From Spirulina sp. SIO3F2 (GTDB taxonomy: Bacteria > Cyanobacteriota > Cyanobacteriia > Cyanobacteriales > Spirulinaceae), in NCBI GenBank assembly GCA_010672165.1, contig JAAHHN010000008.1, forward strand, positions 1 through 64,000: a DNA stretch of 64,000 nucleotides, written 5' to 3'. A program made the position numbers and the translations under genes. The notes under the pieces are model-generated. The model saw only the letters and a program-made list of their open reading frames with translations, had not been told where the DNA came from and made no database searches. Shown piece by piece: positions 1-63,552 of this stretch (the stretch's first letter is position 1; each line of letters begins with the position of its first letter).

Positions 1-80
1 ACTGGGTCTTTACTCTGCTTATATTGCTTTTCTATTTCTTCGCTTGACAGATGCGGTTCTAACGTTACTGTTCTTCCCAT
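1..80 (-). CDS. IS630-type transposase, N-terminal end (cut by window edge)
   Basis: The minus strand opens with ATG at 80 and stays open to the window edge, giving 26 residues that begin MGRTVTLEPHLSSEEI and continue EKQYKQSKDP. This start resembles the helix-turn-helix N-terminus of IS630-family transposases common in cyanobacteria (MxRxLxxxxHLSxEEL...YRxxKDPVE). Only the first part of the DNA-binding domain is visible, so whether the copy is intact cannot be judged. The assignment is by motif memory only. Confidence 0.55.
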   Translation of the reverse strand, partial: MGRTVTLEPHLSSEEIEKQYKQSKDP

Positions 81-184
81 TTTTCTCTAACTATATCAAG
101 ACTCCCTATACTATCCGGATTTGGTATTAGACCGCTTCAGAAACCGCAACACCCTTAAAATGTAAGCAGTGCAGCCTTCTAACC

Positions 185-28263: not shown

Positions 28264-31071
28264 ATGTCAATGCAACCTCCCCCCCAAACCTCCCAGCCAG
28301 TGACGGGTAATGATGGGAAAAACGATGCTTCAGACCTTAACTTACAGGCTTGGGGCTGGGGGCCAAAACTGCCCCTGCGCTGGGTGTTGGTGGTACCCTT
28401 CTTGGTGCAAATTTTTGCGGCAGTGGGCTTGGTGGGTTGGTTTTCGTTTCGCAATGGTCAGCAAGCGATCGCCACTTTAGCGCAAGATTTACAAGGGGAA
28501 ATTGGTGAGCGGATTGAAGACCGTCTGACCAGCTATACTACAGCACCCGCAATCGTCAATCGGATCAACTTGGATATGACGCGGTCACAGCACCTTGATC
28601 TCGCCAATCTCCCCGATTTAAACCGACATTTTCTACAGCAGGTGTTGTGGTTTCCAGAAGTGAGTTATATCGCGTGGGGCAATGCTCAGGGGGAGTTTGC
28701 AGGGGCCTTCCGTGATCAAGACGGCCAGCTCGTTATGGCCCTCGCTGATCGCTCCACCAATGGTGATATTATCCGGTTTCGCAGCGATCGTAATGGCCAA
28801 ATCCTGGCAGAACTGAGTCGGACGCCTGGCTATGATCCCCGCACCCGCCCGTGGTATCAGATGGCAGCCCAGACGAAAAAAGCGACCTGGATCGCACCCT
28901 ATCCGTGGTACGTCGAGAATGTCTTGGGCACCGATTTAGTCTTGCCGTTTTATGACGACGCCGATTCCAAGCAACTCCAAGGGGTGTTTGCAACCACCTT
29001 TTCATTAGATGCCATCGGCGAATTTTTAGCAGGTCTCAAAATTGGTCAATCGGGCCAAGCGTTTATTTTTGAGCGCTCGGGTGAGTTGTTGGGGACATCT
29101 ACAGGGGAAGCACTGGCAATTGGCACTGGCCCCGACCCCAAACGGGTTTCCGCATTAGCAAGCCAAAATCCGCTCATTCGTCAGACTGCGGAACGGCTGA
29201 AAGATGAGTTTGGCAGTTTTGCTGCGATTGAGCAGACCTATCAAGATGAAATTGCGATCGCGGGCCAACCCCATTTTTTGCAGGTTACGGCATTCCAAGA
29301 CGAAGCCGGGCTAGATTGGCTGATTGCGATCGTGATCCCCAAGGCCGACTTTATGGCACAGATTACTGCCAACACCCGCAATACCATTGGTCTGTGTGGT
29401 CTAGCTCTAGCAGTCTCAGCTGTGTTGGGGATTCTAACCTCCCGGTGGATTGCTCACACCATTTTTACAGTGGCTCAAGGCACCGATGCGATCGCCAGCG
29501 GCAACCTGACATATCGTGTTGCTGATGCCCCCATTGGGGAACTCAGTGTATTGGCACGAGCCTTTAACCGCATGGCTGCTCAACTCAATGCCGCCTTTGA
29601 ACAGCTAGAACGTAAAGTGGAAGCCCGCACCTTGGAACTGGCCCGCGCCAAGGAAGCCGCAGATAGCGCCAATCGAGCCAAAAGCGAATTCCTCGCCCAT
29701 ATGAGCCATGAACTCCGCACCCCCCTGAATGCCATTTTGGGCTTCTCACATCTGGCGACCTGTGACCCGACCCTCTCACCGGATCAACGGGAAAATATTG
29801 GCATTATCAATCGCAGTGGTGATTATCTACTCACGCTGGTCAACAATGTTTTGGATCTCTCCAAAGTAGAAGCGGGGAAAATGACGCCCAACCCCAATAA
29901 CTTCGACTTGCACCGTTTGCTGAGTGATATTGAAGATCTACTGGGGTTACAAGCAGAAAGTAAGGGCTTACAACTGCTCTTTGATCTTGCCGATGAGCTA
30001 CCGCAATATGTGCGGAGTGATGAAACCAAGTTGCGTCAGATCTTGCTGAACTTGATCAATAACAGCATCAAGTTCACAACCGAAGGGGGTATTGCAGTCA
30101 AGGCGATGGTCAAGACCCAAACCGCAGACCGAGCAACGCTCGTGTTTGAGGTGCAAGATACCGGCATGGGCGTGGCAGAAGCGGAGCTAGAAAAGTTGTT
30201 TGAGGTGTTTGGCCAAACGGAGAGCGGCAAGCTCAGCCAAAAAGGTGCAGGTTTGGGTCTACCGCTGACCCAACGCTTTGTCCGCCTACTGGGAGGTGAT
30301 ATTGCGATCAGTAGCAGTTTGGGGGTGGGGACAACCGCTACATTTGATATACAGGTGGAGATTGTAACCGCAATCGATGTGGACGTGAAACCGGTATCTC
30401 GCCAAGTGGTGGCCCTGAAACCCGGTCAACGCACCTATAAAATCCTCATTGTGGACGATCGCAGCGCTAACCGTCGCTTGTTAGTGAAACTCCTACAACC
30501 CTTAGGGTTTGAGGTGCAAGAGGCAGCAGACGGCCGTGAGGCGCTAGAACGCTGGGAAACTTGGCAGCCCCAGCTTATTTTTATGGATATGCGGATGCCC
30601 GTGATGAACGGCTATGAGGCCACGGAGCAAATCAAGCGTACGATGGCTGGCCAAGCGACGATCGTAATTGCCCTAACGGCCAGCGTGTTAGAAGAAGAGA
30701 AAGCTCTGGTGCTCTCGGCCGGTTGCGATGATTTTTTGCGGAAGCCGTTTCGGACTGCCACGATTTTTGAGGCGTTGGGGCAACATTTGGGGGTTGAATA
30801 TCTCTATGCTGAGGAAGAGCAATCCACAGAACTATACCCCTCAGAGTCACCGCCAGTAGTTTGGAACCCGGCTGAGCTAGCAGCGATGCCACGGGATTGG
30901 CAGCAGCGACTCTACGAAGCGAGTCAGTCTTTGGATGATGAGATGGCGCTGGCGGTGATTGCAGAGTTGCCGGAAGAACGCGCAGCGTTGGCGGCGGGAT
31001 TGCGGGAGATGATCAGTAATTTTGAGCTGGGTGAGATTCAGAAGTTGTTGGGTGGGGAATTGTCTTGCTGA
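28264..31071 (+). CDS. Hybrid sensor histidine kinase (dCACHE-HAMP-HisKA-HATPase-REC)
   Basis: The 935-residue protein has a membrane helix near 37-58, a periplasmic double-Cache sensor (about 60-370), a second helix (about 372-395), HAMP, a coiled coil, HisKA with [20 protein letters not shown] (His near 483), HATPase ([25 protein letters not shown]), and a receiver domain ([14 protein letters not shown], phospho-Asp in [19 protein letters not shown]). A 100-residue tail after the receiver has the helical form often seen in cyanobacterial hybrid kinases; I could not find a phosphotransfer His in it. Cache input implies sensing of an outside solute. No partner gene is adjacent. Confidence 0.92.
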
Positions 31072-31569
31072 CTATTGGTCAGGCTTGCACTCAGAAGGCT
31101 CTACAGGAAAAAACGCAATAAAGACATTGGAGGAATCAACAGGGCACCTCTACCCAGAAAAATCGGCGTTGCATAATTGCGAGAGGAAGCCGCCCTCTTC
31201 CCCAGCCCTTCTCCCAGTGGGAGAAGGGAGCAAGAAGCCCTCTCCCACTGGGCTAATCCTGTAGGGGTTTCAAATCGCTCCCTTGATTTTGCTAGGGTTC
31301 AGCGGTTAAGCCCTCAAAAGTGCGTTCGCAAGATCCTTGCTGTGAGGGGATTCTGTAAAAACCCTACAAGGTTAGCCACTGGGAGAGGGTTGGGTGTAGA
31401 GCTATGCTCTTCTCGAAGAGTGGGTAACGCAAGATTCATCTTCAAAATCAGCAACATCGAAAAACCTTACCCTAGCCCAGCAAGAGTTATTATCCGCCGA
31501 AAATAAGCTAGAGTGAGTTCTTGGCTATGGTCTACCCATCCTGATTGCAACGTATTTCCCTCGACAACA
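31072..31569. other. Repeat-filled region upstream of pheT
   Basis: It contains one end of a family D element (31164-31190, GGCGTTGCATAATTGCGAGAGG), a palindrome around 31202-31228 (CTTCTCCCAGTGGGAGAAG), a second palindrome split by the 123-bp element at 31253-31375, and a GAAGAGTGGGTAACG segment near 31414 shared with 20550. Open frames crossing it (such as 31177-31506) are made of repeats and are not genes. Confidence 0.6.
31253..31375. mobile_element. 123-bp palindrome-inserted element, family B, copy 1
   Basis: Terminal inverted repeats CTAATCCTGTAGGGGTTT and (in reverse) CTAACCTTGTAGGGTTTT enclose non-coding sequence. The copy at 63340-63462 has the same length and only a few differences. 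The element is flanked by the direct duplication CCACTGGG (31245-31252 and 31376-31383). Removing element and one duplication restores the 21-bp palindrome CCCTCTCCCA-C-TGGGAGAGGG. Non-autonomous; the mobilising transposase is not visible. Confidence 0.85.
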
Positions 31570-63206: not shown

Positions 63207-63552
63207 TTCAGATGGTAAATTTTGCCTCCGACTCTTAATCCCCCCTTCCCCCCTTCAAAAGGGGGGTGACGCCGCAAGCGGCTGGGATAGAAACTCGGTG
63301 AATAGTAGCGTCTGAGATAATGGGAAACCCCCTTAATAACTAATCCTGTAGGGGTTTCAAATCGCTCCCTTGATTTTGCTAGGGTTCAGCGGTTCAGCCC
63401 TCAAAAGTGCGTTCGCAAGATCCTTGCTGTGAGGGGGGTCTGCAAAACCCCTACAAGGTTAGCCTTAATAAGGGGGTCGGCGCAGCCGGGGGGATCTCGC
63501 CAGCCTGACTACTCAATTAACCCAACATTTTTAACAAACCCTCTTAATCCCC
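63207..63552. other. Region between chlD and ycf51 with nested repeat
   Basis: Contains the hairpin CCCCCCTTCAAAAGGGGGG near 63249-63267, the 123-bp element at 63340-63462 sitting in a CCCCCTTAATAAGGGGG palindrome, and a GC-rich tail GGTCGGCGCAGCCGGGG. No gene. Confidence 0.6.
63340..63462. mobile_element. 123-bp palindrome-inserted element, family B, copy 2
   Basis: Begins CTAATCCTGTAGGGGTTT and ends (in reverse) CTAACCTTGTAGGGGTTT. Same length as the copy at 31253 and about five to seven base differences. Flanked by direct 9-bp repeats CCTTAATAA (63331-63339 and 63463-63471); removing element and one repeat restores CCCCCTTAATAAGGGGG, a palindrome. Thus both copies sit at palindrome centres. 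Recent movement is likely from the low divergence. Confidence 0.88.

Follow-up and report, generated by a model that had tools for sequence, protein, structure and literature searches.

A 123-bp element of Spirulina sp. SIO3F2, a probable MITE of a Tn5-like IS4-family group, favors palindromic targets with a C-rich 5' arm

Insertion of an IS4-family element at the axis of a REP palindrome is already known from ISRm22 of Sinorhizobium meliloti, a member of subgroup IS4Sa (PMC2266710), which enters a highly palindromic REP consensus at its axis of palindromy (PMC1525189). The same source places all copies of ISPsy8, ISPpu9, ISPpu10, and ISPa11 in REP palindromes, at a fixed position and with direct repeats of 3, 2, 2, and 0 bp, respectively, unlike the element described here (PMC1525189). 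Members of the IS4 family carry the signature D(60-110)D(100-150)E together with Y(2)R(3)E(6)K, and the cited section of the family survey also refers to IS231A as a member with insertion specificity (PMC2266710). Among cyanobacterial elements, Nezha is likewise a short, non-autonomous MITE, possibly distinct from ours. The symmetric target consensus of IS231A, GGGN5CCC, is G-first, whereas our element prefers C-first sites; the target consensus of Tn5 differs from ours as well, and ISPsy8, ISPpu9, ISPpu10, and ISPa11 belong to non-IS4 transposase families.

The element described here, MITE B, belongs to a group that resembles ISRm22 in combining a probable IS4-family affiliation with insertion at the axis of REP palindromes. 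ISRm22, as far as the cited part of its description goes, uses a single REP consensus at a fixed point and makes 6-bp repeats (PMC1525189), whereas the MITE B group enters C-to-G palindromes of many unrelated kinds, across several genera and two phyla, at a sliding position, with repeats of 8 to 9 bp (range, 7 to 14) and with abundant MITE derivatives.

We examined a window of 64,000 nucleotides (positions 1 to 64,000 of contig JAAHHN010000008.1 of Spirulina sp. SIO3F2), which contains copies 1 and 2 of MITE B (Table 1). A sequence-only reading of this DNA had described a 123-bp element with matching ends and an 8-bp duplication, inserted into a 21-bp palindrome, and we confirmed both claims: the gene-free element has inverted ends and an identical duplication on each side, and once the element and one duplication are removed, two perfect 10-bp arms flank one central base. 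The axis of this palindrome lies 0.5 bp from the center of the duplicated 8 bp, and palindromes scoring 10 or more, as at copy 1, occur near 0.22% of random window positions. The same reading had placed the insertion at the loop tip of a hairpin, which we correct here: the strand joins lie about 4 nt to each side of the axis, in the stem, so that the duplication spans the loop and the insertion spans the center. Copy 1 is intergenic, since it is flanked by a gene for a hybrid histidine kinase (28264 to 31071) and by pheT (from about 31570; TIGR00472, 771.8 bits). An Rfam scan of the window gave no match and a tRNA search of the window found no tRNA, which leaves an RNA element and a tRNA-associated insertion unsupported.

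Table 1. MITE B and its target sites in the window
Feature	Position	Strand	Details
Adjoining uninserted palindrome of the same kind, CCCTTCTCCCAGTGGGAGAAGGG	31206..31228	.	C-tract dyad palindrome
Left part of target palindrome CCCTCTCCCACTGGGAGAGGG	31238..31252	.	10-bp arms, loop 1, span 21
Left 8-bp target duplication CCACTGGG	31245..31252	+	Identical to right duplication
MITE B, 123 bp, copy 1, no gene	31253..31375	+	37 genome matches, 23 with both flanks and target duplication
Left TIR CTAATCCTGTAGGGGTTT	31253..31270	+	0 mismatches to TIR consensus CTAAYCYTGTAGGGGTTT
Right TIR CTAACCTTGTAGGGTTTT, read on the - strand	31358..31375	-	1 mismatch to TIR consensus
Right 8-bp target duplication CCACTGGG	31376..31383	+	Identical to left duplication
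Right remainder of target palindrome CCCTCTCCCACTGGGAGAGGG, AGAGGG	31384..31389	.	Beyond right duplication
MITE B copy 2	63340..63462	+	9-bp duplication CCTTAATAA in CCCCCTTAATAAGGGGG

A search of the 7.3-Mb genome for the 123-bp sequence, as the sequence-only reading had proposed, returned the matches counted in Table 1, which are 94 to 100% identical to the window copy over the sequence present. The 14 matches lacking a flank or duplication stop at or near contig ends, as expected for a repeat in a fragmented assembly, and most of the sites that could be rebuilt are palindromic. With its small size, lack of genes, terminal inverted repeats (TIRs) shared with full-length insertion sequences (ISs), target duplications, and copy number, the element is best classified, on its sequence, as a non-autonomous MITE of an IS4-family, Tn5-like IS group.

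Several individual copies showed unusual arrangements. One MITE B copy breaks a reading frame containing ...YKSGTSMAAPHV on a contig that stops within the MITE (L033, 2-1012); this frame resembles that of a subtilisin-type protease at the active-site serine motif. Another copy (L010, 1001-1123), in the palindrome family of the window copy, carries a target duplication whose two sides, CTCCCACTG and CTCCCAGTG, differ by an inverted central base; mutation, recombination of copies, and flipping of the palindrome center are all possible origins. A 153-bp element (L153) has left and right flanks from two different palindromes, as if copies had recombined. A further element, present at two contig ends of the Spirulina genome (L083, 1-126; L085, 1011-1136), shares its left end, CTAATCCTGTAGGGGTTTTAAAGAGTC..., with MITE B, and its interior is unlike MITE B or the IS. 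A second multi-copy IS, putatively IS630-like, begins at the left edge of the window (1-136) and also follows MITE B position 57 at two loci with differing outer flanks (L036, 1057-1183; L037, 1-127). We considered and rejected this extension as the autonomous parent of MITE B; it is an independent, nested IS, because it occurs at ten other contig ends without the left part of the MITE.

The sequence-only reading had also called for a full-length transposase gene with the same ends, and such elements were found in other cyanobacteria and in a Cytophagales metagenome-assembled genome (MAG), inserted in the same class of site. When searched with one mismatch, the TIR consensus was present in 52 of 291 genomes of the order, that of Spirulina sp. 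SIO3F2 included, and a reversed control pattern gave at most 2 hits in any of the 291. The better-assembled genomes contained TIR pairs 1.6 to 1.9 kb apart, and pairs 123 to 307 bp apart represent further MITEs. We recovered a full-length IS of 1,921 bp in at least seven copies (G105), an IS of 1,611 bp with a shortened transposase frame in at least three copies (G070), and, each with matching ends and a transposase, ISs of 1,858 bp (G120) and 1,843 bp (G186), as well as ISs of 1,482 bp in Leptolyngbya PCC 6406 and 1,413 bp in the Cytophagales MAG. The transposase of the long cyanobacterial ISs has about 447 amino acids. Per-genome insertion counts are minima, drawn from 20 plus 80 stretches among the pattern matches listed. 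Single-mismatch TIR hits in several further genomes (G081, G238, G145, G284, G052, and G205 among them) had no partner end with a duplication and went uncounted, as did lone hits in Stenotrophomonas, Pectobacterium, Corynebacterium, Acidobacteria, and Pseudohongiella, which look like chance matches.

A single open reading frame of 436 to 448 amino acids occupies the ISs at five loci (L120, L133, L137, L307, and L316), and the frames at three others (L127, L138, and L270) are shorter or broken. All five transposases scanned exceeded the cutoff of the NCBIfam IS4 model NF033590 (223.7 to 251.5 bits; cutoff, 160). Of three transposases scanned against Pfam, one matched DDE_Tnp_1, and only marginally. 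The nearest solved transposase is that of Tn5 (phmmer E value, about 4e-19). In an alignment of three cyanobacterial transposases from the same order and one each from the Cytophagales MAG and a Williamsia MAG, residues D84, D173, and E322 and residues Y315, R318, E322, and K329 are invariant, and the first three align with the D, D, and E of the Tn5 chain. The partner ISs thus show all of the IS4-family features examined, namely, the NF033590 match, the DDE and YREK signatures, a single open reading frame, and a duplication of about one helix turn. They share with Tn5/IS50 the DDE arrangement with YREK, duplications of 8 to 9 bp, and ends that start 5'-CT, but at 1,413 to 1,921 bp they extend beyond the 1,350 to 1,550 bp given in the cited section, and their TIR departs from its IS50 end consensus (PMC2266710). 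By eye, CTAATCTTGTAGGGGTTT has G at positions 9 and 13, at odds with the IS50 consensus CW------Y---CA-A--W-, and C/T at position 5 and G at position 9, at odds with the ISPepr1 consensus YT-AA-YTT---A, as both are given there (PMC2266710).

Within the Spirulina sp. SIO3F2 genome, the TIR is followed at five contig ends by the C terminus of this transposase (75% identity, residues 408-439), which makes the presence of a multi-copy full-length IS very probable; no complete transposase gene was readable in this genome, where the copies break at contig ends. MITE B has only the terminal repeats in common with this IS, so that an origin of the MITE by internal deletion is at most a possibility.

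We also identified relatives outside the cyanobacteria. The Bacteroidota isolate Spirosoma oryzae contains 200-bp MITEs with the same ends (L259, L261, L278, L294, and other contigs), in target palindromes, CCCCCTTTAGGGGG and CCCCCTGAAGGGGG, that are unlike the cyanobacterial ones. This suggests that the group either has crossed from one phylum to another or is old and widespread. The Williamsia MAG has ISs whose flanking repeats are cyanobacterium-like (L263, L292, L307, and L309); these contigs are likely mis-binned, and we therefore did not use Williamsia as a third phylum.

To rebuild empty sites, we scanned 150 loci and obtained 55 paired ends with a duplication; after two weak pairs (L199 and L201) were dropped, 53 insertions remained (set 1), 23 from the Spirulina genome and 30 from other genomes. 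A second set comprised 17 insertions from named genomes, that of Spirosoma oryzae included, after removal of four (L248, L274, L312, and L324) that repeated earlier loci. In set 1, a palindrome scoring 6 or more lies near the center of 46 of the 53 sites, compared with 6.8% of 5,000 random window positions, and 34 sites score 8 or more, compared with 0.9%. Set 2 agrees, with a score of at least 6 at 14 of 17 sites and at 2.7% of 6,024 positions on the same contigs. The palindrome is therefore a real target preference of this IS group and its MITEs, as the sequence-only reading had supposed. Seven of the 53 insertions fall below the threshold; under a tighter measure, applied later, 10 of 52 do. 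The first measure had centered three sites on a longer-looped alternative 4 bp away. The 153-bp element, with its imperfect duplication and two differing flanking palindromes, was left out of the tighter-measure and dyad analyses, the copy with the inverted central base was kept with one mismatch, and the resulting 52 insertions represent 50 distinct sites.

Duplications in set 1 are mostly 9 bp (25 insertions) or 8 bp (21), with two each of 10 and 11 bp and one each of 7, 12, and 14 bp. In 33 of 56 palindromic sites, no more than 1 bp separates the axis of the palindrome from the duplication center; in the remainder, the distance is at most 4 bp by construction of the measure. A comparison with elements that choose REP hairpins, also made by the sequence-only reading, thus stands as far as the type of stem-loop is concerned, but not for joining at the loop tip, since the joins are within the stem and their position shifts by as much as about 4 bp. 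Consistent with REP targeting, 13 of the 23 Spirulina insertions are in the motif CCCCCCTTN1-5AAGGGGGG. With 55 intact matches to this motif in the genome, one of which (C112:31361) is the side left whole beside an insertion (L003), MITE B occupies about one-fifth of such sites.

When 106 half-sites were aligned by their cut, the transferred strand showed the consensus CCCCY^CYY: A and G were absent from positions -3 and -2, and 85% had C at +1. From this consensus, each strand appears to be cut within a C-tract, 8 to 9 bp apart across the axis, with C required on the 5' arm. We scored pairs of facing half-sites (dyads) with a matrix trained on other genomes only. Across 464 kb of the Spirulina genome, 12 of 170 strong palindromes contain a C-tract dyad (score, ≥3) and 158 do not, whereas 22 of the 23 Spirulina insertions are at dyads of this score. 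A hairpin alone is therefore an insufficient target, contrary to what the sequence-only reading implied. The doublet repeat TGTCAGGGGGCCAGCCCCCCGACA-CCTCCCG-CTGAGGGGGAGATTGCCCCCTCAG illustrates this handedness: its two G-first hairpins are stable (-7.8 and -9.2 kcal/mol), and the MITE copies, at least three and perhaps as many as five (L020, L025, L029, L031, and L037, some of which may be two sides of a single insertion), are in the weak C-first dyad (-4.6) between them.

Half-sites are not the whole story either, because palindromic C-tract dyads are favored over non-palindromic ones. Among intergenic dyads scoring at least 3, the ratio of palindromic to non-palindromic is 18:4 for those inserted and 18:145 for those available (Fisher p, about 1e-11), with intergenic calls approximate and with background scored at its best position but insertions at their actual cut. 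For dyads scoring 16 or more, 4 of 5 in the background and 10 of 11 insertions are palindromic, so that sequence alone suffices there. One Spirulina insertion in a clear C-first palindrome scores poorly as a dyad (-4.5). As a background, the window alone was too small for sequence and palindromy to be told apart at high scores, and wider backgrounds took its place.

Based on the ends, duplications, copy number, transposase-bearing relatives, target statistics, and half-site consensus read directly from these genomes, we consider it highly probable that MITE B is moved in trans by its IS4 group into facing CCCCY^CYY half-sites. Full-length copies would supply a transposase that binds the shared ends and, if the chemistry is that of the IS4 family, excises the element for cut-and-paste transposition. 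The two ends would be joined to opposite target strands 8 to 9 bp apart, and repair of the staggered joins would produce the duplications. We infer a two-fold symmetric strand-transfer complex in which each active site would favor a C-tract on its own strand; because two half-sites face each other, the ideal target would be a C-to-G palindrome. In the host, such sites would mostly be REP-like stem-loops, C-rich in the 5' arm and G-rich in the 3' arm, which would explain why the MITE accumulates in intergenic repeats.

Whether self-complementarity matters beyond this is more finely balanced. We give even odds to a pure duplex preference for two C-tract half-sites, with palindromy a by-product of the REP-like, C-to-G nature of the sites; this is a narrower form of the explanation just given, so that belief in the two overlaps. 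The half-site consensus is very strong, and 11 of the 23 Spirulina insertions fall in the top-scoring class of dyads, in which almost every available dyad is palindromic. Against it, palindromes are still enriched among intergenic dyads of moderate score (3 to 16), at 8:3 for those inserted compared with 14:144 for those available (p, 3e-6), although the counts are small (11 insertions) and the gene calls approximate.

That extra preference and the flexible stagger may leave room for an extruded cruciform or single-stranded hairpin as the substrate, with the folded C-rich arm recognized and the joins made on the 5' side of each strand's hairpin. We regard this as rather unlikely. The advantage of palindromic over non-palindromic dyads of similar half-site score would fit it, as would duplications that vary from 7 to 14 bp in length and shift around the axis by as much as about 4 bp, which a rigid duplex ruler would not predict, and several off-center joins (L030, L006, and L255, for example) located where stem and loop meet on the 5' side. 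However, G-first palindromes should extrude equally well and are unhit, as reflected in the 158 of 170 strong palindromes that lack the C-tract form, and in the doublet repeat, the two stable hairpins were skipped in favor of the weaker dyad. In addition, 46 of 53 duplications have the 8- to 9-bp stagger that is ordinary for the IS4 family in the cited section of its survey (PMC2266710). A near-random insertion process, tolerated only in intergenic repeats, is very improbable: in its favor are the intergenic location of the window copy and, by approximate gene calls, an intergenic share of the DNA of only about 21%, but the preference holds against the intergenic-only background (p, about 1e-11), and at least one copy (L033) is inside the subtilase-like frame, where a C-tract adjoins too.

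Thus, beyond the REP-axis targeting already known from ISRm22, what is apparently new in the papers searched is a cyanobacterial and Bacteroidota group with MITEs, a broad but handed target class, and sliding duplications of variable length. In the mostly open-access literature searched, we found no earlier report of a C-first target preference in cyanobacteria. Together, the two sets offer 70 rebuilt insertions, and named cyanobacteria supply full-length partners; in this clean, naturally occurring data set, C-first palindromes and G-first palindromes serve as mutual controls and make the choice between folded DNA and a duplex dyad directly testable in a relative of Tn5, which has solved structures. 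Tentatively, the Tn5-like transposase could read target shape as well as sequence, requiring a C-rich 5' arm in a self-complementary dyad, probably through a transient hairpin, with a stagger of 7 to 14 bp that fits the C-tract spacing. If so, a DDE transposase of the best-studied class would be a general seeker of one stem-loop handedness across unrelated REP-like repeats in two phyla. The narrow, mostly intergenic target could serve low-damage insertion tools, and the insertions help account for the splitting and diversification of cyanobacterial REP-like stem-loops.
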